This document shows positions 5,164 to 18,780 of a DNA stretch of 64,000 bases, piece by piece. The notes beneath the pieces were generated by a model. That model ran no database searches, had not been told where the DNA came from, and saw nothing but the letters and a program-made list of their open reading frames with translations. Position numbers and translations under genes: made by a program. Within the stretch, counting starts at the first letter, position 1. Every line of letters starts with the position of its first letter. Source of the stretch: Candidatus Altimarinota bacterium (GTDB lineage: Bacteria; Patescibacteriota; Gracilibacteria; JAHISY01); assembly GCA_021735425.1 (NCBI GenBank), contig JAIPGZ010000003.1, positions 1-64,000 of the forward strand, written 5' to 3'.

Positions 5164-6007
5164 GGGACTACCACTGTTAAGTGTTGGTGGTTGGTCTAGA
5201 GAATCGAGCAGTTAGATAAGCTACCCGCTCAGGATAGCTGAAGTTGAACTGAAAACAAATCTCTCTTAGAAACTCAGTAAGTTTTGGGTAACCACGGTAG
5301 GTGTGAACTGCCTTGGGTTTAGCATGTCCCCACACCCCTTCAATCCCATTTGTATGAATACCAGAACACTCCCTAGAGACAAATTCTCTAGCATGACAGA
5401 TAGTGAAGTGTTTGCGTGAGTATCTCAGTTCATTGTAGCCTCTCCATTCATCAGTAAAGGCAGAGGTGTTTTTATCTAGTAGATTGTCTACAAAATTTGT
5501 GAGAGTTGCAGAGTTACGATTTTGTAGTGGCGAGAGTTTAATTTGCTTTGTGATACGGCTTTTAGCTCCACCAATCCAGATGTGTTTCATAGTAGTCTCA
5601 TCTATTTCAGCCAGTCCAGAGAGTTTTTCTCCTGCAGTAGATGATGGAAGTATCTGACGAACCATACGACGGTAGTGTTGTCCGGTATTGGTATGTTTTT
5701 GGAAAAGCTTGGCAAGATCAGCACCACTAGGACAAGTACGAATGCTGACCAATTGTGCTAATAATCTCCACTGCTGATCAGTTATGCGAGTACGATGACG
5801 AATTGTTCCAGTGCGATTAGTAAAAGTTTTTCTACAGCTTAAACAACGATAACGAATTCGCTTTTGGGTTGTTTTACCCCAGCGAATTACATCGCCGATT
5901 ACGCCACAATGAGGGCAGGTTTTTTGTGCAGGCATACTTTTTGAAGGATTAGGGGCTTAAGTTAGCCCGATTCCTTAGTTTTACCAACACTTAACTGTTG
6001 TTGTCCC
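5164..6007 (-). mobile_element. Complete IS1595-type insertion sequence
   Basis: The 844-bp element is bounded by imperfect 24-bp inverted repeats (5164-5187 and 5984-6007, 21 of 24 identical, both starting GGGAC). It is flanked by a perfect 8-bp direct duplication AAAAGTAT (5156-5163 and 6008-6015). The 8-bp duplication, GG-starting ends and a zinc-ribbon/ISXO2-like transposase fit the IS1595 family. The single gene fills the element and its stop codon lies inside the left repeat. Intact ends and target duplication suggest recent insertion. It lies between the structured-leader gene and the cytochrome b5-like gene. Confidence 0.9.
5177..5935 (-). CDS. IS1595/ISXO2-like transposase
   Basis: The 252-residue enzyme starts with a zinc ribbon (CPHC at 7-10, CLSC at 31-34), followed by a helix-turn-helix-like segment and a DDE-type core: Asp112 in EIDETT, Asp162 in FTDEWRGY and Glu199 in HTNGIEGVW. 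The HTNxIEG motif is characteristic of ISXO2-type transposases. The spacing between the two Asp residues (50) is short for the family, so this is a compact variant. No frameshift or internal stop is present and both inverted repeats are intact, so it may be functional. Confidence 0.9.
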   Translation of the reverse strand: MPAQKTCPHCGVIGDVIRWGKTTQKRIRYRCLSCRKTFTNRTGTIRHRTRITDQQWRLLAQLVSIRTCPSGADLAKLFQKHTNTGQHYRRMVRQILPSSTAGEKLSGLAEIDETTMKHIWIGGAKSRITKQIKLSPLQNRNSATLTNFVDNLLDKNTSAFTDEWRGYNELRYSRKHFTICHAREFVSRECSGIHTNGIEGVWGHAKPKAVHTYRGYPKLTEFLREICFQFNFSYPERVAYLTARFSRPTTNT

Positions 6008-6700: not shown

Positions 6701-7339
6701 ATGGACAAGAGTAAAAATAATTCGAACAGTGCTGATACCTTGAAAGCGTACGAGAGGATTTACGCTGAGTCAGAGCAGGCTTACAGCTCACAGCCATTTT
6801 TTTTGGTAAAAAAAATTCATAAATATTTGCAGACTGGTTTGGTCGTGGACTTCGGAGCAGGTGAGGGGAGGAATAGTGTTTTTCTCGCAGAGCAGAGTTT
6901 CTTAGTAGAGGCGATTGATTTTGCCGCCGGGGCTGTCAAAAAGCTGGAAGAGAAAATCAAAAAAAAATCTTTAAACATACGAACGAAGAGAGCTGATCTC
7001 AGTCGGCTGAATTTGGCTGGTAAATTTCATGTAGGGGTTTGCACTTTCGTGCTGCACAATCTCTCAGCCACAGCAGCCAAAAAGTTTATCCTCAAAATGC
7101 AAAAGCACACCGAGATCGGAGGAGTGAATGTATTGGCTTGTTTCACAAAGCAGGGATATTTTTTTCGCAAAGACCCTAAGACTGGAAATTTCTTCCCCAG
7201 CCAGACTGAACTAAAAAAACTTTACACTGGCTGGAAAATCCATGAAATCAATACTAAAAAAATACGCTTGCGTCCGATAGATGCAGCAGGAAAACCGCTT
7301 TTTGGTGACTGCGTGGTGATGTTAGCGCAGAAGCTTTAG
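6701..7339 (+). CDS. Class I SAM-dependent methyltransferase (TehB-like)
   Basis: The 212-residue protein has a Rossmann-type SAM-binding motif I, VVDFGAGEGRNS (about 50-61), an acidic end of strand 2 (EAIDFA) and a motif IV-like segment (HVGVCTFVLHNL). The arrangement resembles TehB and small-molecule methyltransferases. The substrate is unknown. It is the last gene of a plus-strand trio with the cytochrome b5-like lipoprotein and the two-helix protein, and its 3' end overlaps the convergent radical SAM-like gene by 4 bp. Confidence 0.8.
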   Translation: MDKSKNNSNSADTLKAYERIYAESEQAYSSQPFFLVKKIHKYLQTGLVVDFGAGEGRNSVFLAEQSFLVEAIDFAAGAVKKLEEKIKKKSLNIRTKRADLSRLNLAGKFHVGVCTFVLHNLSATAAKKFILKMQKHTEIGGVNVLACFTKQGYFFRKDPKTGNFFPSQTELKKLYTGWKIHEINTKKIRLRPIDAAGKPLFGDCVVMLAQKL

Positions 7340-8097
7340 TTGTTTTTCTGTCTCGAAAAACAAGCTTGTTGCTTCAAGAGTTTAGGTAGAAGTTCTTTTT
7401 CGTACATTGCTCGTAGATCGAGATGATCTGTGAGCTGCGCGGTGAGTGGCAGGAAGCGACAGAGGCTGATGGTATTGCCATCTGGCTGAATCGTGAGATT
7501 CGTGAAGGGGCAATTGTCACACATTAGGTCGGCGTGGGAGTAGCTTGGTGAGGTCGAGAGAATCGCTTTAGTTTTTTCTGCCAAGGTTTTAGCAATTTTT
7601 TGATTGTCAGCCGCTTCGTTTTCTCGTATATAAAAAGCGAGCTTTACGGGGACTCGATTTTCACGATAAAAACGAATTGTTCGCTCAATGTTTGTTCGTA
7701 GCTCAGGATAGTCGAAGTAGACGTGGAGATTTACGACCACGCGGTCAGGTAAAGATTTTTTGGGTGGCAGGATTCCATTGCTGCGTAGAGTTGATCGGAC
7801 ACCCTTACCACGCAAGTAATAAAGTGCCTCGTCGACGTGCTTCCAAAGTGTCGGCTCACCACCACCGAAAGTTATCGAGCGGAGTTTCTGCAGATTGCTG
7901 ATTCTCTCGACAGCCCAGTGAAAGTTTTCGATTTTTAGTTCTGACCGAAATTTTTCTGAAAATTTAGATTTTAGTTTCGGAGCGATTTCTGGATTTAGCT
8001 GGTAAGTCGGGATGACCGAAATTCGTTCAAAATCAGCATAAGTAAAACCACTTACGCCACGTGCCTTTTTTAGTTTTTGGCTAATTTCTGAGTGCAT
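7336..8097 (-). CDS. Degenerate radical SAM homologue lacking the cluster cysteines
   Basis: This 253-residue protein aligns by eye with the active radical SAM enzyme at 15933-16790. VIPTYQLNPEIAPK stands where that enzyme has IVPTYACNLACSYC, ITFGGGEPTLW matches ITFIGGEPTIW, and LRSNGILPPK matches LLSNGMKLPK. The three CX3CX2C cysteines are replaced by Leu34, Ile38 and Lys41, so the SAM-cleaving [4Fe-4S] cluster cannot form in the usual way. The SAM-binding GGGEPT (78-83) remains, as does a C-terminal MCDNC/PDG/LC segment like the SPASM region of its paralogue. It starts 1 nt after the SLH protein stop, so it is translated with that operon. It may act as a scaffold or peptide-binding partner (inference). 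Confidence 0.75.
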   Translation of the reverse strand: MHSEISQKLKKARGVSGFTYADFERISVIPTYQLNPEIAPKLKSKFSEKFRSELKIENFHWAVERISNLQKLRSITFGGGEPTLWKHVDEALYYLRGKGVRSTLRSNGILPPKKSLPDRVVVNLHVYFDYPELRTNIERTIRFYRENRVPVKLAFYIRENEAADNQKIAKTLAEKTKAILSTSPSYSHADLMCDNCPFTNLTIQPDGNTISLCRFLPLTAQLTDHLDLRAMYEKELLPKLLKQQACFSRQKNN

Positions 8098-8098
8098 A

Positions 8099-10012
8099 CT
8101 ATTGAGCCCTTCTTACAGTTTTTTTCAAAATCTGCTTGGCCAGCGAGGCAATCTTAGCAATCTCGGCTCGGTTGATTTGGTCACTAGGTTTGAATTTACC
8201 ATCGGCGTAGCCAGCTACGATTTCTTGAGCATTGGCGAAATCTACAAACTTAGCAAACCAATCGCTGGATGAGACATCAGAAAAATTCGAGCTAGCTGAA
8301 TTGGGGATGTTTACTCCAGAGGCAGTGAGAATCATCTTCATCGCTTCAGCACGATTCACTACTCCACCTGGCTGGAAGCTGCCATCAGGATAACCGCCGA
8401 CAGCTGCGGCGTTTTTGGCAGCGGCGACATAGGGAGCGAACCAGGCGTTTTTGTCGACATCAGGGAAAGGATTCGTAGCGACGCTCGTCGGCACTTCGAG
8501 GTCAAAAAGCTCGACGACAATCTTGGCTATTTCAGCACGATTCAGGGAATTACCTGGTCGGTAAGTCTCATCTGGATAACCAGCAACCACTTCTTTTTCC
8601 ACTAGGTCTGCGACGAAAGGTGCGTACCAAGCATTCACATCGACATCCTTCAGCCCCCTTTGGAGTGCGTTTTTGGCTTCGACCTCAGCGACGACTCGGA
8701 GGTGCTCTGGATAATCTGCGATGTATTCTTCTAGTTCTACATCACTGGCTCCTCCATCGATTAGCGTTTTGAGTCTCCAGAATAATTTTACAGAATCTGT
8801 TTTGTTGGGCTCGGCGGCACCTTCTTCTGCCCCGATACTTACTGCCATATCTACAAATCTATCGATTTGATTATCGAGGTTATTGTCTCGAGCACTGGCG
8901 TCTAGACCGCTTTCTGCTAGAGAAATGCTGTCATTGTAAAAATTGACAATATTATAAAGGTCTTCGCTAGACATGTGAGATAGCCACAGATTAGTCACAT
9001 CAGATTGTCCTAGTTTCACCATCTCTTCCACGAGATAATAGCGAAGCCAAGGAATGTAAGAATATTCATTAATAATTTGATTGTTGAATGTAACTGGGCG
9101 GATGCCATAAACCTTTATTCTGCTGCCGTCTGTATTTATGTAGCCTTCGATTTTTACCTCGCCATCAGAGATAATTTCCTTTGCTATGTCTGACTTACCT
9201 TCGATTTTGGATTCTATCGCTGGGATGAATTTCGTGTAATAACTATTAGTGGCTTCAGCAAAAGCATTCATTAAGATGTAAGGATTGAAGTCAGTCCTGC
9301 TTGACTCTGGTGCTGCCATGATCATGTGCATGGTGTAGATTACTTTGGCGTAGTCTGCATCCATTTTGTCTTTTTCGATGATGATTGTTTTGAAGCTTTT
9401 CCCATCTTTGCTGATATTTGCGACATTTCCACTTACTCTCTGAGGATAGGAATAGTGGACGATGAGTCCGCTGTCTATGTCAGCAGGGGTGATTCCATCT
9501 TCTTTAATCTCCCTCAAAACTGCTTTGCACCACAGAAGCTCTCCATCATCGAGATCATAAGAGAATTCGACGTCAAACAAACTAGTAGTAGAGTTGTTTG
9601 TAGCACTGTCATTACCGAGATTAAGCAGCTCACTTTCTTTGGGAGTGCTGGCGGCTAGGGCTTCACCAAGTTGTAATTTGCGCTTGCGGAAAAGAGGATT
9701 CTTGAAATTAGTTTTTACAGTCGGGGGACCACTAGCAGATTCTTCTTCTATAAAAAGCGATTGATTTAAGCCTGAATAATTATCTGGCAGTAAAGAAAGA
9801 AGAGCTTCTTTTTCTGTAATTGCCAAATCATCAACTTGCTCTAGCAAGAGCGAGTAACAACTTGATTCCAAAGCATTTGATTGTGCAGCGGAAGTGGTAT
9901 CGCTGGTGATAGACACAACGAAAACAAAAACGGTAGCAATAGTCGGAATAAGTATTTTTTTAGTGGTCATAAATTTTAAGTTTAAGTTTTTTGAAATAAC
10001 GGATTTATCCAT
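8099..10012 (-). CDS. Secreted protein with three C-terminal SLH domains
   Basis: The 637-residue protein has a signal peptide (ILIPTIATVFVFVVSIT, cleavage near AAQSNA) and a roughly 400-residue domain of unknown type. Three SLH repeats lie at about 465-630, each with the pattern F/V-x-DV..W(F/Y)A..V.....VxGYPDGxFxPxxxxNRAE. SLH domains bind secondary cell-wall polymers or anchor S-layers at the surface. The start is uncertain: ATG at 10012 lies 6 nt after the Hint gene stop, while Met15 (9970) gives a shorter N-region; neither has a Shine-Dalgarno sequence. It lies in an operon between the Hint protein and the degenerate radical SAM protein. Confidence 0.85.
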   Translation of the reverse strand: MDKSVISKNLNLKFMTTKKILIPTIATVFVFVVSITSDTTSAAQSNALESSCYSLLLEQVDDLAITEKEALLSLLPDNYSGLNQSLFIEEESASGPPTVKTNFKNPLFRKRKLQLGEALAASTPKESELLNLGNDSATNNSTTSLFDVEFSYDLDDGELLWCKAVLREIKEDGITPADIDSGLIVHYSYPQRVSGNVANISKDGKSFKTIIIEKDKMDADYAKVIYTMHMIMAAPESSRTDFNPYILMNAFAEATNSYYTKFIPAIESKIEGKSDIAKEIISDGEVKIEGYINTDGSRIKVYGIRPVTFNNQIINEYSYIPWLRYYLVEEMVKLGQSDVTNLWLSHMSSEDLYNIVNFYNDSISLAESGLDASARDNNLDNQIDRFVDMAVSIGAEEGAAEPNKTDSVKLFWRLKTLIDGGASDVELEEYIADYPEHLRVVAEVEAKNALQRGLKDVDVNAWYAPFVADLVEKEVVAGYPDETYRPGNSLNRAEIAKIVVELFDLEVPTSVATNPFPDVDKNAWFAPYVAAAKNAAAVGGYPDGSFQPGGVVNRAEAMKMILTASGVNIPNSASSNFSDVSSSDWFAKFVDFANAQEIVAGYADGKFKPSDQINRAEIAKIASLAKQILKKTVRRAQ

Positions 10013-10018
10013 TGGTTG

Positions 10019-10789
10019 CTATCCATCATCATCACTATCATCATCGTCATCACCACAGTTGTGTACTACGAATCCTGCGCTGATGTAAGTGTGATCGCCG
10101 TCCAGCTGGAGGTCGTAGACAGTTTCTTCTTCGGGCCTTTCGAAAACGTGCTCTAGGGTCTCGACTTTCTCTTCTCCGTCTGCTGTCTTCAGGACATCTC
10201 CGATCTGGAGCTGAGAAGCTCCCAGGTCGGCGTTGCGCCCAGTCTGCTGGAGTAGCGCTAGATCACAAACTCGCCAGCTGCCATCTGCGGCGAGGAAAGG
10301 ATGATCACCAGTGACTTCGACTTTATCGTTGATTTTGAAAGTACCTCTAGCTCCGATTACTACCCTTTCATAATCTTTGACAGTATTGATGGTCTCGTCA
10401 TCGCCAATCACTTGTTCTCCGACTTCTACATTCTCTATATTTTTTTCGCTACCATCAGCCATTTTTACTTTTGTGCCTGCTACGAAACATGATGCATCAT
10501 CATCACCATCATCATCACCACTACTACTGCCATCAGGACAGTCACAGTCTGTGACGATTACTTGCCAGTTGGGATTATTGGTCCAAGTGTTGGGGTTAGG
10601 GACTGTGTGATATATCGATACTGCTTTCGCTCCTGGGATTAGAGTGCCTAGAGCTCTCTCGACTTGCGCCCAAAAGATAGAGTCACCTTGCGTGACGAAT
10701 GAAAAAGCTGCTGCTCCAGGTATGCTGCCAAGTAGACTAAAAAGAGCAATCTTGGCCGCTAGTTTTTTTTCAATCACTATTTTTGACAT
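10019..10789 (-). CDS. Secreted protein with a complete intein-like Hint domain and Asp-rich flanks
   Basis: Residues 1-30 look like a signal peptide or anchor. Residues 101-244 form a mini-intein-sized Hint domain. It starts at Cys101 (SCFVAGTKVKMADG), has block B VTGDHPF with Thr160/His163, and ends VVHN with His243-Asn244. The next residue is Cys245, a suitable +1 nucleophile, so all residues for protein splicing are present. The flanks are short and acidic: DDDGDDDAS before and CGDDDDDSDDDG after. Splicing would fuse two Asp-rich stretches into one secreted chain. No homing endonuclease is present. It lies in an operon with YbaB-like, SLH and degenerate radical SAM genes. Splicing versus cleavage cannot be decided from sequence. 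Confidence 0.85.
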   Translation of the reverse strand: MSKIVIEKKLAAKIALFSLLGSIPGAAAFSFVTQGDSIFWAQVERALGTLIPGAKAVSIYHTVPNPNTWTNNPNWQVIVTDCDCPDGSSSGDDDGDDDASCFVAGTKVKMADGSEKNIENVEVGEQVIGDDETINTVKDYERVVIGARGTFKINDKVEVTGDHPFLAADGSWRVCDLALLQQTGRNADLGASQLQIGDVLKTADGEEKVETLEHVFERPEEETVYDLQLDGDHTYISAGFVVHNCGDDDDDSDDDG

Positions 10790-10827
10790 AGTTTTGGAGT
10801 TAGATGAGTGGGTACTGAGAATTGTGT

Positions 10828-11079
10828 TTATTTGATGAGTTTTTGAATTGCTTTGAGGTTACCAGCTTGGGCTTTTTTACTCGCACGGTTGAGGATACTC
10901 TTGAGGGATTTTAGCACTTCGGGTGTGATTTTTTTAGGCAGATCGATTTCGAGAAATTTGAGTTCACCGTTGACCACTACTTTGACTCCCTTGCTTTGCA
11001 CCTCGAAAATATTCGCTCTCAGGTCGTCTTGAGTGAGCTTGAGCTGACGAATTTGCTGGAAGGTTATTTGAGGATCCAT
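10828..11079 (-). CDS. YbaB/EbfC-like nucleoid-associated protein (weak match)
   Basis: The 83-residue protein has the layout of the YbaB/EbfC family: an N-terminal helix, a central VKVVVNGELKFLEIDLP hairpin resembling the family's VxVTVNGxxxVxxxxI, and a C-terminal amphipathic helix (EVLKSLKSILNRASKKAQ). Family members are usually about 100 residues and bind DNA as dimers. The match is by pattern only. It is the first gene of the minus-strand operon with the Hint, SLH and degenerate radical SAM genes, an unusual setting for a DNA-binding protein, so another role is possible. Confidence 0.5.
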   Translation of the reverse strand: MDPQITFQQIRQLKLTQDDLRANIFEVQSKGVKVVVNGELKFLEIDLPKKITPEVLKSLKSILNRASKKAQAGNLKAIQKLIK

Positions 11080-11263
11080 GAGTGCATTTTAAGTTTAAAT
11101 ATTTTATTTTTTGAAAAGGGAAACCTTTGGGCAATTTTAATGTTGGTTGAGATGAGATGCAAATTTTGGGATAATGGGGATAATGAAAGAAATAGGATAT
11201 TCAGATTTATCAAAAAACTGTATGTATGCAGTCAGTTTTACTTGGTAATCGCAGGTAGGTTTT

Positions 11264-12820
11264 TTAGTTACTCGCAGGTTTAAATTCACCACTACTTTTT
11301 TTGCCAATAGCGCTAGCAATTTGGTTTCTGACATCAGCCTTTATATCACTGAATTCAAGCGCATAAAATTTTTCAAGATTTATTTTACCTTGATACCATT
11401 TTTCTAATTTCAACATTGCTTTTCCGTCTAGTCCAGTAAGAAGCTCTGTCTCGATATATTTTCCCTCTTCTCCGCTGATATTTATTTTTTTGCCTTCTGT
11501 GGTGGTGACTTCAACCATATTAGGCTGTAAAAATTTTATAGATTTTATAATTGCTTCTGGTTTTTGACTTGTTTGTGCTAGCTTCTTTTCACGCCCTACG
11601 ACCGCTGCTTGACCATTGATTGTTAGTAAATATTCCCCATTCGCGGGGAAAGAAAGCTCTACATTATTAGAGCTGCCGACTGAAAGAGCATCTTCCACAT
11701 TACCAGCTTGGTCAAATAATCTGACAGTATTTACGTCTAACTTCATGCCGAGAATAGCTTTCTGTGTCGCAATCAATTCTGCATTATTAGCTTCAAGGGT
11801 TCCGGGCAGATGGATGGGCTTGTAGCCCAGCATCTCCCTAAGAAGATTTGCCATTTCGCCAGAATCAAACATAGCATTATGTTTACCTGGAACTATTTCT
11901 TTGCGAATAGCTATATTTAATGCTTCTGCTTGTTTTGTAAATGAATCTGCCAAATAAGGGGGGACATTGTCGTCATCGTCACCCATAGCGATGTAAATCG
12001 GGATCTCTCCTGGCTCTCCCTTTTTTGGTGCGTTTTTCAACGCTTCATGGGCGGACATACGGACCCTTCTTTGGGTTGGCTTTTTGCTTTTTTTGCGTCT
12101 TTCAGCATTAAGGTGATTAATCCACTCAGCAGCATTAGGGGGACCGGCCCCCGCCAAAACACCGCTGAGTAAACCTTTATATTTGAGAGCAGTGAGTAGC
12201 CCTAAAACAGCTCCCCCAGAGTGTCCTGCGACGAAAACTTCGCATCCATAATAGTCTTTCAGCGCTTTGATTGCCGGAGCTATGATTTCTAATTCATCGA
12301 GACCCCACTCTCCTCTACCACGACCATCATTGTCATAAGGTCTTTTCTTTAACTTTCTAGACTGTAGTTTTCCGTTTTTCTCTAGTCTTGCACCTGGACG
12401 TGCCATGACAACCGATAATATTTTCCCTGGGTCAATTGTAGCAACTTGATTAGCATTATCTCTATAAGACTCTACGTTGGCACGGTCAGCATTCAAAAAA
12501 ACGACAATCTTTTCTGGTCGTTGACCTAGTTTCATCTCACCATGTTTTTCTATGAGTAGACCATTAATCCATTGCTCATAATCGGTTTTCTCGTTGGAAT
12601 CTAACTTCAGAGTATTCGGATCGACAGGATCGTATTGTTTTTCGTTATCTCCGAAGAAGGCTAGTGCTTCATCAACGAACTTAGGAACTCCCACAGTCGC
12701 CGCGACAGATGCGCCACTGCCAAAAACAATTTTTTTCATGAATTCACGACGACTCATCCGAGGAGCACCTTGTTCTGCCGCTACTGGATTTGCTTCTCGA
12801 CTTTTGTTTGCAGTTTCCAT
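11264..12820 (-). CDS. Tat-exported alpha/beta hydrolase with C-terminal extension
   Basis: Residues 23-55 carry a twin-arginine signal (SRREFMKK followed by a hydrophobic stretch), so the protein is probably exported folded. The hydrolase core shows the nucleophile elbow AGHSGG with Ser201, an acidic loop MGDDDDNVPP (about 279-287) and His314 in PGKHNAMF, which together fit a Ser-Asp-His triad. About 180 residues after the core (340-518) form an extra domain of unknown type. The reaction is an ester, amide or similar hydrolysis; the substrate is unknown. It lies between the radical SAM operon upstream and the Hint/SLH operon downstream on the same strand. Confidence 0.8.
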   Translation of the reverse strand: METANKSREANPVAAEQGAPRMSRREFMKKIVFGSGASVAATVGVPKFVDEALAFFGDNEKQYDPVDPNTLKLDSNEKTDYEQWINGLLIEKHGEMKLGQRPEKIVVFLNADRANVESYRDNANQVATIDPGKILSVVMARPGARLEKNGKLQSRKLKKRPYDNDGRGRGEWGLDELEIIAPAIKALKDYYGCEVFVAGHSGGAVLGLLTALKYKGLLSGVLAGAGPPNAAEWINHLNAERRKKSKKPTQRRVRMSAHEALKNAPKKGEPGEIPIYIAMGDDDDNVPPYLADSFTKQAEALNIAIRKEIVPGKHNAMFDSGEMANLLREMLGYKPIHLPGTLEANNAELIATQKAILGMKLDVNTVRLFDQAGNVEDALSVGSSNNVELSFPANGEYLLTINGQAAVVGREKKLAQTSQKPEAIIKSIKFLQPNMVEVTTTEGKKINISGEEGKYIETELLTGLDGKAMLKLEKWYQGKINLEKFYALEFSDIKADVRNQIASAIGKKSSGEFKPASN

Positions 12821-12940
12821 GAAATAAATTTGAGGGTAGTTTATTTTAACACTAATTAATCTTTATTGTCAACACTTTGTGAAGCTGAAAATAATCTGGT
12901 CGAGGATCAGTAAGTTTGAGTCTGGATGAATAGTTGCATT

Positions 12941-14572
12941 TTATGACTTCATTTTACGGAAAGCAAACAGCCGATTGTCATTAGCCAGAGCGAAGAAGAG
13001 CTTTTGTTTTGGTGAATAAGTGACTGCGTTGGTGATTCTTTCTGGGAAATACAATTTTCCAGAAATTTCATTGCTTTTTGGATTGATTTCATAGATTGCA
13101 CCGTCATTGCTGCCGAAATAAATTTTCCCTAGGATTTCACGAGGAGAAGACAGAATATTGCCGATGGCACGGATTTCTTTGAGGACTTTTCCCGTCTTGA
13201 GATTTATGACATACAGACGTTTGTCGCTCGAAGTCACATAAACTTTATTTCCTACGATTAGAGGAGTGGAGTAGATGATGTCTTCAGTCTGGACACTCCA
13301 ATTTTCTTTACCAGTGCCTAGATCTATAGAATAAATCTTCCCGTCATGACTGCCTGCGAGGACAGCATTATTTTTCAGATCGAAAGTCGGTCGATATTTG
13401 ATTGGACCTCCAGCCTGAAATTCCCAAATTTTGCGTCCAGTTTTTGCTTCGAATAAAAGCAGTGTGGCGTCATTCGTGCCAATCGCGACAATACCTTTTT
13501 CTTTTGAATAAGCTGGCGATCCATGTAGTAGTTCTTTGACGACGTATTCCCACACTTTTTCACCCGTCTGGATATCTAGGGCGAGGACACTACCTTTCTT
13601 GCCCCAGACTCCCTTCTCTATTCCTATGAAAAGCAGTCCGAGTTCGGGAGCTAGAGCAGGAGAGCTGCCGACCCAATCACCCTCGCCGAATTTCCAAATC
13701 AAGCTGCCATTTTTCGTATCGAGACAGTAGACATTGCCATCGTAGCTGCCGAAGAAAACTCGATCACGGTGAAGCGCAGGTGACGAGAAAATACCTTTTT
13801 TCTTTAAGTCTTTTCCGCACTGAAAGTACCAAGCGGGTTTGCCGGTTTTTTGATTCACTGCCCAAAAGATCGCAGCGTCACTACCAAAGTAAAGATTCTG
13901 ACTATCTAGTGCGGGTGTGGATTTTGGTACGACGAAGTAGTGACCCAGTTCAAAAGGTTGGAAATGCCAATCTTGCTTAAATTTAGACTGAGGAATTTTT
14001 TTGGTTTTGCCTCGCTCTAGTCCGAAATCAGCCAGTCGGTAGATGGAAAAAATTTTAATATTATTCTCCTTCAAAAAATTCTGACCCCTAACGTTGTAGT
14101 AATTCACAATCACAAAAACCTCTCGGATTTTTCGATTGATATCCTCTAGCGCGACCCGGACTTTATTTAGTGTGCCGCCAGCATTCATGAGATCATCTAC
14201 TACGACGATTGGATCATTTGTGATCTCACCTTCGATGAGATGTTGTCGACCATGATTTTTTCTTTCCTTCCTGACAAAGAAGCCGTTGACCTTGAGTCCT
14301 CGGTGGCGTCCTTCTAGGATCATCGCGGCGACGAGAGGGACGGATCCAGCCTCTAGTCCACCGACCTGAAAAGGCCATTTTTTTTCAAACTTATCCCAAA
14401 AAACTTTGGCGGATAATTCCAAGCCTTCCGCATCCATAAAAGTCCTACGGAGATCGACGAGCCACTTGCCCTGTTTTCCCTTAGTGCTCATTATTTTGTT
14501 GCCATTCTTGGACAGAATGATGGATTTCTCCATAATGATTTGGAGCAGGCGATCTTTTGATTTGAGAATCAT
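12941..14572 (-). CDS. Fusion of orotate phosphoribosyltransferase-like and PQQ-type propeller domains
   Basis: Residues about 35-190 resemble type I/OPRT phosphoribosyltransferases: GGLEAGSVPLVAAM, FFVRKERKNHG (compare the OPRT FVRKEAKDHG motif) and the PRPP loop VVVDDLMNAGGT (123-134). Residues about 215-540 are a beta-propeller of PQQ/BamB-like repeats (for example GSYDGNVYCLDTKNGSLIWKF-type blades, seven or so). I know of no common protein with this pairing. The ATG overlaps the upstream radical SAM stop as ATGA, which fixes the start and indicates translational coupling. The PRPP-dependent activity and what the propeller binds are unknown. Confidence 0.82.
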   Translation of the reverse strand: MILKSKDRLLQIIMEKSIILSKNGNKIMSTKGKQGKWLVDLRRTFMDAEGLELSAKVFWDKFEKKWPFQVGGLEAGSVPLVAAMILEGRHRGLKVNGFFVRKERKNHGRQHLIEGEITNDPIVVVDDLMNAGGTLNKVRVALEDINRKIREVFVIVNYYNVRGQNFLKENNIKIFSIYRLADFGLERGKTKKIPQSKFKQDWHFQPFELGHYFVVPKSTPALDSQNLYFGSDAAIFWAVNQKTGKPAWYFQCGKDLKKKGIFSSPALHRDRVFFGSYDGNVYCLDTKNGSLIWKFGEGDWVGSSPALAPELGLLFIGIEKGVWGKKGSVLALDIQTGEKVWEYVVKELLHGSPAYSKEKGIVAIGTNDATLLLFEAKTGRKIWEFQAGGPIKYRPTFDLKNNAVLAGSHDGKIYSIDLGTGKENWSVQTEDIIYSTPLIVGNKVYVTSSDKRLYVINLKTGKVLKEIRAIGNILSSPREILGKIYFGSNDGAIYEINPKSNEISGKLYFPERITNAVTYSPKQKLFFALANDNRLFAFRKMKS

Positions 14573-15936
14573 TTATCAAAGCAATATCCGTATTCTGAAA
14601 CTATTTTAAACTTTATTTTTTTAAATTTTTCTCTGGCTTGCATGGCCATTGCGCAGGCTTTTTTTATATCACGAGGCTGCCAATTTTTTGAGCTCTTGAT
14701 CAGTGGCGCGTTGCGGGGAAGTTTCTGTCCGATTTTGATTTTATATTCCGACTGCTTCAGGTCAAGCAATGTGTTGGGATTGAGATAAAGCTGCTTTATC
14801 TGGAGATAGTAGGGACTTAGAGAAGTCGCGAAGTCCAGTGTTTTTCCGAACCACTCTAGTGAATCTCCTGGTAAGCCAAAAATAAGATCAAGCTTGATTA
14901 CGATTTTGTGCTTTTTGCTTTCATGCAAAATCATCTCAAAAATTTTGAAGTCAAAGTTATTTTTTCGGCTCGCTAGATATTGGACATCAGGATTGATTGA
15001 CTGCAGTCCGATGTGTATGTGGTTTACATTTATTGCGCCAAATTTTGCGATTATTTTTTCATCTAATAATTCTGGTCTAGTCATGACTGACAAAGTAGGG
15101 GCTTTTTTTTTGTTTGGAAAGACTTTCTTATAAGCTTTGAGGAAATCATCGAGATGTTTTGGTGAAGCCATGAAGGTGTCGTCCAATACTGAAATTTTTT
15201 TCACGCCTTTTTCGCTCAAGTATTTCATCTCTGCCAAAACACGGTCAATCGGAAAGTTCCGTACTTCCGCAAACTTCACACTACGAAAACAGTAATGACA
15301 CCGATAGGGGCAGCCACGTGCAGTCGTGAGATAAAAGAAAGGATTTTTTTTGGAAGCAAGTTTGGACTTAATAAAATCATCGAATAAGCCTTCTAAATAA
15401 GGTGAGGGAATTTTGGAGAGATTGGTGATTAGATGGGCATCTTTATTTACGACAATCCTTTTGCTTTTACGGTAGCTTATGCCGCTTATTTTCGCTAAAT
15501 CTTTTTGCGTGCAATAGCCCAACAGGGGTACTTCAGCTTCGCCTCTCAGAATGAAATCAAGTTTGGGATTTTTTTCTAGCAGCTCGGTAGATCTTTTTTC
15601 GGCGATTTTGTAGCTTTGAAGACCGACTTTTATTTCTGGTTGGAGTTTTCTCAGCTTGGCAATAATCCTAAGTGTCACCCCTTCATAAAACATACCACTC
15701 CAGATAATGTTGTCGAGAAAAAAGATGACAGTGTCGGATTCGTGACCAGCGATGACGTAGGCATCTTTCGTGAAGTCACTAATTTTTTTCTCCCTACCCA
15801 CCACCACAGGCAAAATTTTCACCGTGGATTGAGGGGCATATTCCCGTAGGTAGGCTACTGCATAGCCCAGATCCAGAGGGGTGTAGTTGACGCCTTTGTG
15901 GTCGAAGTAAACGAGAAGGATTTTATTAGCTTTCAT
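14569..15936 (-). CDS. Radical SAM enzyme with B12-binding-type N-terminal domain
   Basis: The CX3CX2C motif is Cys209, Cys213, Cys216 (ARGCPYRCHYC). The N-terminal 190 residues follow the layout of the B12-binding-domain radical SAM class: PLDLGYAVAYLRE, then DFILRGEAEVP before the core. The cobalamin-ligand DxHxxG motif is not visible, so cobalamin may not be bound. The core continues with VLDDTFM and IKLDLIFGLPGDS. I place the start at ATG 15936, which overlaps the upstream TGA as ATGA; a further in-frame ATG at 15972 would force a 40-bp overlap. The substrate is unknown. Fourth gene of the coupled operon. Confidence 0.85.
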   Translation of the reverse strand: MKANKILLVYFDHKGVNYTPLDLGYAVAYLREYAPQSTVKILPVVVGREKKISDFTKDAYVIAGHESDTVIFFLDNIIWSGMFYEGVTLRIIAKLRKLQPEIKVGLQSYKIAEKRSTELLEKNPKLDFILRGEAEVPLLGYCTQKDLAKISGISYRKSKRIVVNKDAHLITNLSKIPSPYLEGLFDDFIKSKLASKKNPFFYLTTARGCPYRCHYCFRSVKFAEVRNFPIDRVLAEMKYLSEKGVKKISVLDDTFMASPKHLDDFLKAYKKVFPNKKKAPTLSVMTRPELLDEKIIAKFGAINVNHIHIGLQSINPDVQYLASRKNNFDFKIFEMILHESKKHKIVIKLDLIFGLPGDSLEWFGKTLDFATSLSPYYLQIKQLYLNPNTLLDLKQSEYKIKIGQKLPRNAPLIKSSKNWQPRDIKKACAMAMQAREKFKKIKFKIVSEYGYCFDK

Positions 15937-16790
15937 TTTTTGAGTTTCATCGAGAGACAGCCGCCCTGACATTGTTTTGGGAAAAATTCACAGCTCTCAC
16001 AAGCAGCTAGTAGGGGATCACAGCGTAGCTTGTCTACTACTTTCCCGAAATTCAAACAATTTTTCGCTGCTAGGTTGAGATCGACACAGGGCAAAAAAGA
16101 TCCATCTGGATTTATTACTACGGATCTTTTAGCAGGTTCACAACGAGAATACAGTCCACAATTTGTGCGTAAAAATTTCAATTGTTTTTCTGTAAAAAGA
16201 CAAAGTGGTACTGCACGATTGAGCGTGATTTTTTGTTTATTTTTTTTAACCAATTTAGCAAAATCAAATAGGACTTCCCCAAGTTTTTTATCCAAGAGAT
16301 AGGGGACTATCGGAGAAAAAGAAACTGAGCTGGCGTATTTTTTCGCCCAGTCGGCATATTTGTGCAGCTGAGTGGAAGAATCTTTCACTCCGAGGTTGAA
16401 GCGTAATCCAGCTGGAATTTTATGTTCGTGATATTTCGTGAGATTTTTTAAAATTTTTGGACATAGCTTAGGGTCGGTTAGATTTGTTCCATTGATCATC
16501 ACCATGTGCGGCAATACTTTTGGTAGTTTCATGCCATTCGAAAGAAGACCTACTTGCATGCCGAGATTTTGCGAAGCTTCAATGGCCTTATCAATGTGTG
16601 ACCAAATCGTAGGTTCACCGCCGATGAAAGTAATTTTCGACACTCCTTGTGTTACCAGCCAGTCTAATATTTTGCGAAATTTTCCCCAGCTCATTTGCGG
16701 GAACTTCCCACGGTATTTGCTAGCATAGCAATAACTACATGCGAGGTTGCAGGCATAGGTCGGGACGATATGGACACTTTTTAGTTTCAT
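15933..16790 (-). CDS. Radical SAM enzyme with SPASM-like C-terminus
   Basis: Cys14, Cys18 and Cys21 (TYACNLACSYC) form the SAM-binding cluster site and FIGGEPTIW the SAM-binding GGEP motif. The C-terminal third has a SPASM-like Cys set: NCGLYSRCEPAKR, INPDGSFLPC and CESCEFFPKQCQGGC, which would hold auxiliary Fe-S clusters used by peptide- or protein-modifying enzymes. The start is taken as ATG at 16790, overlapping the upstream TGA by one base; a TTG immediately before is possible. It is the closest relative in the window of the cysteine-less protein at 7336-8097. Confidence 0.85.
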   Translation of the reverse strand: MKLKSVHIVPTYACNLACSYCYASKYRGKFPQMSWGKFRKILDWLVTQGVSKITFIGGEPTIWSHIDKAIEASQNLGMQVGLLSNGMKLPKVLPHMVMINGTNLTDPKLCPKILKNLTKYHEHKIPAGLRFNLGVKDSSTQLHKYADWAKKYASSVSFSPIVPYLLDKKLGEVLFDFAKLVKKNKQKITLNRAVPLCLFTEKQLKFLRTNCGLYSRCEPAKRSVVINPDGSFLPCVDLNLAAKNCLNFGKVVDKLRCDPLLAACESCEFFPKQCQGGCLSMKLKK

Positions 16791-17752
16791 CAAAAAGGTG
16801 AGAGAGGAGGGTAGTCATAATTTTCCAAATACTCATTTTGAATTTTATTGCAGACTGGATTGAGCGCGCAGTTGGCACAGGTTTTTTTACTCCAAACTTC
16901 TTCTTGAAAAAGTCTTTGGCGATATCTTTTTCCTTTCCTCATACTTATCCTGAGCTCATGTGGCCAAGGGCTAGTTTGATGAATCACCTGGGGTAAATCT
17001 TGCCAATCCTTGAAATAGCAAAATGGTAAATTAAAAAGAGTTATTTTTATTTTAGAATTAGCTAAGATAATTTTTAGAGATTTTTTTACTGTTTCGATAA
17101 CTTCAGGCTGGCCCAACGGAACAACTTTTTGTTTTTGACCCTCGTTCATCGATGTGCCGAGATAAAGACCGCGAACTACAATCGCGGCTCCGTAGTTGAT
17201 TTTTTTAGTAACGAATTTTACCAACTTTGGCAGTATTTTTAAGTTGTCCTTGGTTATCGCGATGATTACCACTAGCTTAATCTGATTTTTTTGAGAAAAA
17301 TTAATGGCATTTTGTATTCCTGCAATCTTTAGTTTTTCGATTTTTGTTTTCGCTGGCCAGTGATCTACATCGCTCAGCGACAACGCTAACTTCTTTCTTT
17401 TACGAGGATATTTATTAAATAATTGATTGAGCTTGGAAGTGAAATCTTTTTTGACAAATCTAAGTGAATTTGTATTGAGGGAGACCTGCACACGAGTGGG
17501 TTCCTGACTCAGGAGAAAGTCCATGATTTCCCAAAATTCTGGGTGTAGAGTGGGTTCTCCTCCGGAGAGAATCACCTGAGAAATATTCCACTTTTTATAG
17601 GCGAATTGATATCGGTTGATGACCTCCTTGAGAGAATATTCAGGAGCACGATTTAATAAAGCTCGATTAAAGCAAAATTTACAGTTGCTGTTGCAACGAT
17701 AGGTAGTATTCAGCACTAGGGTGGCGAAATCGAAATCTGCGCCTTTCTTCAT
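16790..17752 (-). CDS. Radical SAM enzyme with short auxiliary cysteine cluster
   Basis: Cys20, Cys24 and Cys27 (YRCNSNCKFCF) and ILSGGEPTLHPEF identify a radical SAM core. The C-terminus ends in KTCANCALNPVC, a possible truncated SPASM/Twitch auxiliary cluster site. The start is placed at ATG 17752 because it overlaps the upstream stop as ATGA; an in-frame ATG 9 nt earlier is less likely. Second gene of the operon. Substrate unknown. Confidence 0.84.
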   Translation of the reverse strand: MKKGADFDFATLVLNTTYRCNSNCKFCFNRALLNRAPEYSLKEVINRYQFAYKKWNISQVILSGGEPTLHPEFWEIMDFLLSQEPTRVQVSLNTNSLRFVKKDFTSKLNQLFNKYPRKRKKLALSLSDVDHWPAKTKIEKLKIAGIQNAINFSQKNQIKLVVIIAITKDNLKILPKLVKFVTKKINYGAAIVVRGLYLGTSMNEGQKQKVVPLGQPEVIETVKKSLKIILANSKIKITLFNLPFCYFKDWQDLPQVIHQTSPWPHELRISMRKGKRYRQRLFQEEVWSKKTCANCALNPVCNKIQNEYLENYDYPPLSPF

Positions 17753-18780
17753 TTCCAACATTGGGGATCTTTAGCGAAAAAATTTCCAGTCACGGCTGCA
17801 GAGATACAACTAGCTCCACCTTTGCATTTTTCAAAAACGCTACACTTTGGGCACTCTTTGTCTCTTGGCATATTTGTTACAAGCTTTTTGTAATCGTTTT
17901 CGTAAATCTTATTTAGGGTCTGCTTTTTTATGTTACCAATTTTATTGGGAAAGAGGCGACAAGGATAAACATCGCCATTTGGCATGATGGTGATAATGCT
18001 CATTCTCCTGACACCACAGCTGTGAAAGTTTCCACTGGGCCATTGTGTGTACTTTAGTCCACTCATGCAGGTGTTGGTTTTGAAAACTCCATTCCCATTT
18101 TTTAGTCGATACTTTTGATTTAGTTTTTCGACTTTGATGTAAAAATCACGTAACTCTCTGGGCTTTAGCATCATCGCTATTTCTTTTTTGCCACCGCCGA
18201 TTGGCACGAATCTTCTCAGTGTCATGCGAACATCGTAGATCAATAATAAGTCAACTAGCTCCAAAACTTGCGGGTAATTCATGCGTGAAATCGTAGCTGC
18301 GAGATGCACTGGAATTTCATTTTGTTTGACCAGACTGACCGCTGCCAAGATTTTTTCGAAAGACCCCTTGCCACGAATTTCATCGTTGATTTCCTCTGGG
18401 CCCTCGATACTGATTTGTATTCCGCTCACTATCGGTGCGCGTTTTTTCAATGCTTGTAAAAAGTTTTTAGTTAGCAGGGAACCATTTGTGAGAAGTGTGC
18501 AGTGTTTGAAATATTTTTTGTATTGTGAGATGTATTCCAAAAAATCAAGTAAGTCTTGACGCAAGAGGGGCTCTCCGCCAGTTAAATTCAGTCGACCCTG
18601 CGCGCCTGTTTTTTTCAACAGTGCGATGTATTCATCAAAAACTCGTTTCAAGGCATCTAGGTGCAATTCCTCATTTTCGTAAGTTTCTGCATAACAATGC
18701 TTGCAACGAAAATTACATCTATCTGTGAGGTGCCATTGCAGCGTTAGAGATTTTGGATGATTTAGGGTGGTGAGAGACAC
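17749..18780 (-). CDS. Radical SAM/SPASM enzyme, first gene of the operon
   Basis: Cys22, Cys26 and Cys29 (DRCNFRCKHCY) and NLTGGEPLLR mark the core. The C-terminal part is a canonical SPASM domain: SCGVRR, IMPNGDVYPCRLF, ECPKCSVFEKCKGGASC and a final Cys (DPQCWK). SPASM enzymes such as PqqE, AnSME and ranthipeptide maturases modify peptides or proteins, so a peptide or protein substrate is likely but not shown. It begins a run of five genes joined by 1-4 bp overlaps. Its promoter presumably lies in 18781-18863. Confidence 0.88.
   Translation of the reverse strand: MSLTTLNHPKSLTLQWHLTDRCNFRCKHCYAETYENEELHLDALKRVFDEYIALLKKTGAQGRLNLTGGEPLLRQDLLDFLEYISQYKKYFKHCTLLTNGSLLTKNFLQALKKRAPIVSGIQISIEGPEEINDEIRGKGSFEKILAAVSLVKQNEIPVHLAATISRMNYPQVLELVDLLLIYDVRMTLRRFVPIGGGKKEIAMMLKPRELRDFYIKVEKLNQKYRLKNGNGVFKTNTCMSGLKYTQWPSGNFHSCGVRRMSIITIMPNGDVYPCRLFPNKIGNIKKQTLNKIYENDYKKLVTNMPRDKECPKCSVFEKCKGGASCISAAVTGNFFAKDPQCWK

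Follow-up and report, generated by a model that had tools for sequence, protein, structure and literature searches.

What would a bacterium with a reduced genome do with four different radical SAM enzymes whose genes run directly into one for a protein that fuses an orotate phosphoribosyltransferase (OPRT)-like domain to a beta-propeller? We address this question for a locus of a Candidatus Altimarinota bacterium (contig JAIPGZ010000003.1 of assembly GCA_021735425.1), within a stretch of 64,000 nucleotides that was analysed as a whole and that we call the window. An initial annotation of the sequence alone had left two answers standing, a peptide or protein modification route and a modified nucleotide sensed by the propeller. 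Our results indicate that the locus is most likely a diverged radical-SAM peptide or protein maturation system for a small, exported, acidic and Cys/Asp-rich surface protein, and not a nucleotide pathway. We further think it fairly probable that the five proteins (P1–P5) modify one neighbouring gene product, here called the DCDC protein, with P5 acting as a scaffold and as the part that responds to phosphoribosyl pyrophosphate (PRPP) or a nucleotide.

The five open reading frames (ORFs) were all found on the minus strand, in the order P1-P2-P3-P4-P5 from 18780 to 12941. P1 (17749..18780; 343 aa, GTG start) is a radical SAM/SPASM enzyme; P2 (16790..17752, alternative ATG at 17761) is an HxsC-like radical SAM enzyme whose C-terminal Cys set is short; P3 (15933..16790, alternative TTG at 16793) is a further radical SAM enzyme, in which the C-terminal Cys set is SPASM-like; P4 (14569..15936, with a longer ORF from an ATG at 15972) is a radical SAM enzyme of predicted B12-class architecture, Rossmann domain plus barrel; and P5 (12941..14572) consists of the OPRT-like domain (residues ~1–190) and a predicted 8-bladed beta-propeller (~200–540). 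The junctions read ATGA at P1/P2 (4 bp of overlap, or 13 bp with the upstream ATG of P2), TGATG at P2/P3 (1 bp, or 4 bp counting from the TTG), and ATGA (4 bp) at both P3/P4 and P4/P5. The translational coupling of P1–P5 is therefore as tight as first claimed, and the five genes are indeed joined by overlaps of 1–4 bp. As for the limits of the locus, which had been drawn at 12941–18780, position 12941 is the end of the operon but not of the functional locus, which very probably continues to 7336 through genes for an exported hydrolase-like protein (ABH), a YbaB-like protein, the DCDC protein, a partner with SLH domains and a pseudo-radical-SAM protein (psRS). The window genome (G000 in our collection, in which G numbers denote genomes, C numbers contigs and L numbers loci) comprises ~1.0 Mb in 38 contigs and is 97% complete; P5 is the sole such fusion in it.

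The strict coupling had been taken to imply a single pathway, and the company that these genes keep elsewhere bears this out. Among 353 genomes of the class, P5 occurs in 13 (12 strong matches and a weak one, G331), and it occurs in one genome of another class (G622). P4 occurs in 10 of the 353, seven of which also hold P5, a co-occurrence far beyond chance (hypergeometric p = 1.5e-9, although the true significance is lower because the genomes were treated as independent). On contig C41 of G015 (L040), a P5-type gene whose propeller is eroded is contiguous with relatives of P3 (45–47% identical), P2 and P4, then a YbaB-like gene and lastly a gene for a DCDC protein; the P2 relative, too, adjoins other members of the set. 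P1 relatives that are 34–35% identical adjoin P5 in G198 and G184. The G198 locus (L086) holds P1, P5, P4 and a second P4, together with an exported protein anchored by a transmembrane (TM) segment, an HxsA3-like precursor, HxsB (489 bits against a cut-off of 370) and HxsD (57 against 50). In G184 (L087), P5 forms an uninterrupted run with P1 and another P1-like gene, and a separate small contig carries two P4-like genes, HxsB and an HxsD-like ORF. P4 and P5 also recur in G165 (L089), with two fused P2-like domains and an HxsA3-like precursor next to P5, and in G078 (L042), where HxsB lies near P5; in G096, HxsB lies ~20 kb from P5. Matches to HxsA3 in these related loci are below the cut-off. 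Relatives of P3 occur in the Hxs locus of G172 and in that of G151, where about nine radical SAM genes are grouped, and identities reach 29–34% in the His-Xaa-Ser loci L069 and L070. Against phages, P3 gave partial matches alone (25–34% identity).

Which molecule might the enzymes act on? The likely substrate, missed by the initial annotation, is the DCDC protein (10019..10789, minus strand), which combines an N-terminal hydrophobic segment, a WTNxPNWxVIVTDCDC motif and an acidic tail, and is interrupted by a Hint domain. It carries the stretch WTNNPNWQVIVTDCDC, which includes VTDCDC; the DCDC motif itself (residues 81–84; 10538..10549, minus strand) is common to all four copies of the protein, and among 67 non-overlapping ORFs of the window it is present in this one only. 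In G005 (C5; L128:111-434) there is a Hint-free copy of 107 residues, 49% identical over the N-terminal part (...WTNSPNWHVIVTDCDCPPPPPP...), whose gene is directly followed by a 41% identical orthologue of the SLH partner of the window. G015 holds two DCDC genes, one after P4 and the YbaB-like gene on C41, the other on C38 (L129:11731-12075) and encoding a Hint-free protein of 114 residues (...VSDCDCNCRWINDDCGDDDGDDDDGA); the latter is followed by a TM-anchored exported protein and then by a pseudo-radical-SAM protein. The arrangement in the window and that on C38 of G015 show that the order precursor, exported partner, pseudo-radical-SAM protein is common to two genera of different families. 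The gene for the DCDC protein is thus close to the enzyme genes in the window and immediately beside them in L040, and in L129 and L128 it accompanies partners of the same kinds. A conserved small exported neighbour, together with His-Xaa-Ser peptide genes in or near related P5 loci, argues for the first of the two initial proposals, peptide or protein modification.

One could instead suppose two independent adjacent operons, with P1–P5 acting on an unlinked target and the YbaB-like, DCDC, SLH and pseudo-radical-SAM genes forming a separate surface operon. A promoter-like site (TTGACA-18-TAAAAT, 11 of 12 positions, a consensus match only; 12843..12872, minus strand) does precede ABH, G005 keeps the DCDC and SLH genes without P3, P4 or P5, and one of the G015 sets of DCDC, partner and pseudo-radical-SAM genes is on a different contig from the enzymes. 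The site is the best of its region, and it may mark the start of a second transcription unit running from ABH to psRS; however, we take it only as a hint of such a split, because the promoter scan as a whole gave 27 sites, close to the 21.3 expected from shuffled sequence. On the other side, the P5, P3, P2 and P4 genes on C41 of G015 run directly into a YbaB-like gene and the second DCDC gene, and psRS (7336..8097, minus strand), with 27% identity over its length, is a paralogue of P3 itself, which ties the two units together. In the psRS sequence the CxxxCxxC motif was not found, and a 29% identical homologue after the partner gene in L129 likewise is without it. We consequently regard independence of the two operons as distinctly improbable.

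The fusion protein is the member of the set that had suggested nucleotide chemistry. Its OPRT-like domain scores 73.3 bits against TIGR00336 as the annotated protein and 76.6 in the genome search, neither of which reaches the cut-off of 106.8, and the first domain is closest by sequence to the OPRT of Mycobacterium tuberculosis (5hkf; 1.3e-13). The propeller part matches PQQ_2/ACSF4, so the description of an OPRT/PQQ-propeller fusion as the last gene was correct. An AlphaFold2 model built from a 14-sequence alignment (mean predicted local distance difference test (pLDDT) score 86.5) predicts a propeller that resembles 8-bladed designs and BamB. A scan of the collection with P5 alone gave propeller-only relatives (from query residue 179 on, mostly from 207 on) and did not find the fusion. 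P5 therefore combines domains like those of PyrE and of BamB/PQQ-type propellers, but differs from both in fusing them and in an OPRT part below the PyrE cut-off. No signal peptide was recognised by eye, which makes a periplasmic quinoprotein or BamB an unlikely identity for P5.

Could the product of P1–P4 then be a small molecule or a modified nucleotide, P5 being an active phosphoribosyltransferase that adds or removes a ribose phosphate, and the DCDC and SLH genes unrelated neighbours? The window P5 keeps the OPRT loop RKERKNHG (catalytic loop pattern RKxxKxHG) and a PRPP-like loop, VVVDDLMNAGGT; an R-K-x-(R/K)-K loop is kept in the P5 copies that span it and a VDDLxN(S/A)G PRPP-like loop in most, and the neighbours of P5 in G622 include PRPP synthetase, pyrE, pyrF and pyrD. 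However, the loop histidine is found in the window copy only, the other copies retaining the lysines, and the PRPP loop is eroded in one G015 copy. Moreover, a second, true OPRT above the family cut-off is encoded on another contig of the window genome; P5 is therefore a specialised relative, and its identification with the housekeeping OPRT was rejected. Elsewhere P4 and P5 accompany the peptide genes HxsA, HxsB and HxsD, no nucleotide gene travels with the set except the pyr genes of G622, and in G015 the precursor is conserved beside it. The proposal of a modified nucleotide sensed by the propeller finds no support here, and we hold a small-molecule or nucleotide product to be, if anything, a shade less probable than two unconnected operons.

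All four enzymes exceed the Pfam cut-off for Radical_SAM (PF04055; P1 80.8, P2 53.9, P3 55.6 and P4 77.0 bits), and CxxxCxxC was found in each. In the Pfam search of P1–P5 a SPASM domain was recognised in P1 alone (34.8 bits against a cut-off of 21.5), in keeping with the canonical SPASM enzyme described as the first gene; the C-terminal cysteines of P2 and P3 fall short of the SPASM model. The best NCBIfam match of P2 is HxsC (TIGR03977), at 58.4 bits against a cut-off of 267.9. In P4, the radical SAM core begins after ~200 residues, and the Pfam search gave Radical_SAM alone and found no B12-binding domain. The AlphaFold2 model (pLDDT 84.6) nevertheless predicts an N-terminal Rossmann domain and a radical SAM barrel, and its best Foldseek matches are CysS, TokK, TsrM and AprD4 (E from 1e-25 for CysS to 6e-18 for AprD4), which supports the B12-class layout first proposed. 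The predicted fold is thus like that of the B12-dependent radical SAM methyltransferases and the diol dehydratase AprD4, yet identity is 16–19%. Among the PADLOC models, the candidate PDC-M51A also matches P4 (14569-15936), at 120.6 bits (1.7e-35) and along the length of the protein.

PADLOC matches of this kind, with pVip models matching P1–P3 and PDC-M51A matching P4, could be read as an anti-phage defence locus built from a viperin-like radical SAM enzyme and a nucleotide-handling protein. Such matches are, however, expected for any radical SAM domain, and we judged them to be generic. None of P1 (83.8 bits), P3 (50.0) and P2 (39.7) reaches the prokaryotic viperin cut-off of 180 (NF038283), and P1 possesses a SPASM domain. 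No PADLOC model matches P5, and for the downstream genes the matches are limited to one of the Hint/homing-endonuclease type and to weak ones between viperin models and the dead P3 paralogue. The gene company, moreover, is of the peptide-maturation kind. A role in defence is therefore very improbable, far more so than any other reading weighed here.

How, then, does the locus compare with known systems? The His-Xaa-Ser (Hxs) system (HxsA, HxsB, HxsC and HxsD; Haft and Basu, cited in PMC9062424) is a radical SAM system for ribosomally synthesized and post-translationally modified peptides (RiPPs). It resembles the window locus in that two or more radical SAM enzymes accompany a small precursor whose N terminus carries a hydrophobic segment. 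In addition, P2 is nearest to HxsC, and relatives of P3, P4 and P5 occur in or near genuine HxsA/HxsB/HxsD loci of recoded relatives. The differences are that the window set adds P5, the B12-fold P4, the SLH partner and the pseudo-radical-SAM protein, and that P2 is far under the HxsC cut-off. HxsB (TIGR03978) was not found in the window genome at E <= 1e-60, a threshold at which it is present in 49 of the 353 class genomes, and the candidate precursor has no His-Xaa-Ser repeat, carrying DCDC and acidic runs instead. Because these two hallmarks are both missing, the window locus is not a member of Hxs. The mechanism is most likely that of a radical-SAM RiPP-type locus, diverged and distinct from Hxs, and searches of open-access literature gave no report of this gene set, as the initial annotation had supposed.

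A second comparison concerns the chemistry and is with radical SAM/SPASM peptide maturases that form Cys thioethers, among them PapB and SbtM. PapB, a SPASM enzyme, links Cys to Asp or Glu (PMC9413430). P1 resembles PapB and SbtM in its radical SAM core and SPASM Cys set, and DCDC offers both Cys and Asp; P1 nonetheless scores 106 bits against the PapB cut-off of 340 and 157 against the SbtM cut-off of 350. The spacing of Cys and Asp in DCDC is shorter than is known for PapB substrates. Given this difference, and a P1 score so far under the one required for PapB, we treat a PapB-like Cys-Asp linkage as a lead only.

Several observations weigh against the maturation system that we favour. P1–P4 are below every curated NCBIfam equivalog cut-off among the matches listed; the precursors of the window and of G015 are only weakly similar (6e-4 pairwise, 7e-5 in the genome search); and the promoter-like site lies between P5 and the precursor unit. 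Six genomes (G087, G093, G339, G622, G096 and G144) have P5 without P1–P4 nearby, so that the role of P5 is not specific to these enzymes; the genes are thus partly scattered in relatives, which the initial annotation had named as evidence against a single system, but P4-P5 and larger sets recur together. Furthermore, G005, which is 98% complete, has the DCDC protein and its SLH partner at a contig start (L128 111-2321), and P3, P4 and P5 were not found in that genome, which means either that the substrate may not need P3–P5 or that the assembly lacks them. The locus is also patchy, since a search of four further genomes of the genus found none of P3, P4 and P5.

In the window genome, the precursor is interrupted by a Hint/intein-like domain (residues 101–244; 10058..10489, minus strand; PF05203 41.4 bits against a cut-off of 32.1). 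The C-terminal Hint model TIGR01443 scores 29.9 bits against 15.6, and the N-terminal model 18.7, below its cut-off of 24.5. Alignment shows the residues of class 1 inteins, namely C101, TGDH, a block-F Asp, HN244 and C245 (Cys+1). Like inteins and bacterial intein-like (BIL) domains (PMC7765530), it has Hint blocks A, B, F and G, and it shares Cys+1 with inteins; it differs in sitting within a candidate radical-SAM substrate. Three related Hint domains occur in G000 and one in G005; HN-Lys is the ending of three of these four, as in A-type BIL domains (PMC7765530), and HN-Cys that of the fourth. In silico excision gives ...DDDAS-CGDDDDDSDDDG, with a CGDDD tail that resembles the uninterrupted tail of G015 (NDDCGDDDGDDDDGA); the G005 tail is without such a Cys. 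From these residues, the window domain may splice rather than only cleave. The four related Hint/BIL domains lie in secreted-looking proteins at L131 3-3332 (G000:C28), L130 2-889 (G000:C29) and L132 3478-6462 (G005:C12), one of which carries two such domains.

We propose that maturation would proceed as follows. While the DCDC precursor is still in the cytoplasm, P1–P3 (SPASM, Twitch-like) and the B12-fold P4 may modify it, with either the Cys/Asp motif or the acidic tail as the probable site. P5 would be the hub of the maturation complex: its propeller would dock proteins, and its OPRT-derived domain would bind PRPP or a nucleotide and thereby gate the process or, with lower probability, catalyse a transfer. 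Delivery of the precursor might fall to the YbaB-like protein together with psRS, the catalytically dead paralogue of P3, and in the window genome self-excision of the Hint domain would join ...DDDAS to CGDDDDDSDDDG. Export through the N-terminal hydrophobic segment could follow, the product then acting at the cell surface with the SLH-anchored partner. A more specific version, in which the substrate is assembled by splicing and the complex is organised by the OPRT-derived domain on its propeller, perhaps through phosphoribose transfer or PRPP gating, appears to us rather doubtful.

The partner (8099..10012, minus strand) is a secreted protein with three SLH domains (120 bits), and its N-terminal part is weakly related (profile E 1.8e-7, hhalign 2e-4) to the TM-anchored proteins of L086, L087 and L129 (G198, G184 and G015). 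A small exported product with a TM- or SLH-anchored partner, patchily distributed within a genus, would be compatible with a bacteriocin-like peptide directed at neighbour or host cells, that is, with antagonism instead of structural surface modification, and antimicrobials are the product of many radical-SAM RiPP loci. However, neither an immunity gene nor a dedicated peptide ABC exporter was recognised among the cluster ORFs, the tails of the precursors consist of low-complexity runs, either acidic or made up of Gly or Pro, and the domains of the partner are those of S-layer anchoring. We consider a bacteriocin unlikely, though less so than a nucleotide product or a pair of unrelated operons. 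Under the reading we prefer, maturation of a surface protein, the four radical SAM enzymes of this reduced-genome bacterium gain a candidate substrate that can be put to the test, and the set is tied to the little-characterised His-Xaa-Ser type loci, of which the OPRT/propeller fusion is a recurrent partner. If the Hint domain does splice, a candidate radical SAM substrate would be cut and rejoined before or after modification, which would constitute a natural switch. Such surface proteins could also bear on the interactions of these small bacteria with other cells.

Two further genes of the downstream unit, both on the minus strand, lie between P5 and the precursor. ABH (11264..12820) is an exported alpha/beta-hydrolase-like protein (PF00756 20.3 bits, below the cut-off) whose Tat-like N terminus carries a twin-Arg motif as read from the sequence; its position suggests that it may belong to the system. 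The YbaB-like small protein (10828..11079; PF02575 25.2 bits) is a divergent second copy in the genome, and a 39% identical relative sits between P4 and the DCDC protein in L040. We rejected its identification as the normal YbaB, as the ordinary gene is at G000:C35:25594-25842. At 5177-5935 of the window, ~1.4 kb from the end of the locus, is a transposase-like ORF that opens with a zinc ribbon and looks IS1595-like by eye; it may offer a route by which this patchy locus could be transferred.

Some additional features of the related loci are worth recording. A multi-pass membrane protein lies near P5 in at least four of the genomes without nearby P1–P4; an HTTM/SdpB-like identity for it (G087, G093, G339 and G096) was dropped for want of a Pfam match. 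P5 is near rhodanese and thioredoxin-like exported proteins at L041 4509-10200 (G096) and L085 13772-16329 (G144), and G096 also has, along with the multi-pass membrane protein, two paralogous small exported proteins with Gly/Asp-rich tails. At L114 8780-16760 of G622, P5 comes after PRPP synthetase, pyrE, pyrF and pyrD, and precedes a gene with a weak glycosyltransferase match and one for an exported, Gly/Ser-rich protein that is truncated at the end of the contig. The His-Xaa-Ser type locus of G151, a genome that reads TGA as an amino acid, spans 669-19545 of L070 (G151:C15:230001-250000) and holds, besides its radical SAM genes, HxsB, HxsD-like genes, three tandem related proteins (8412-11381) and an HxsA-like precursor ending in GHSSHGSHGSHGSHGSRW.

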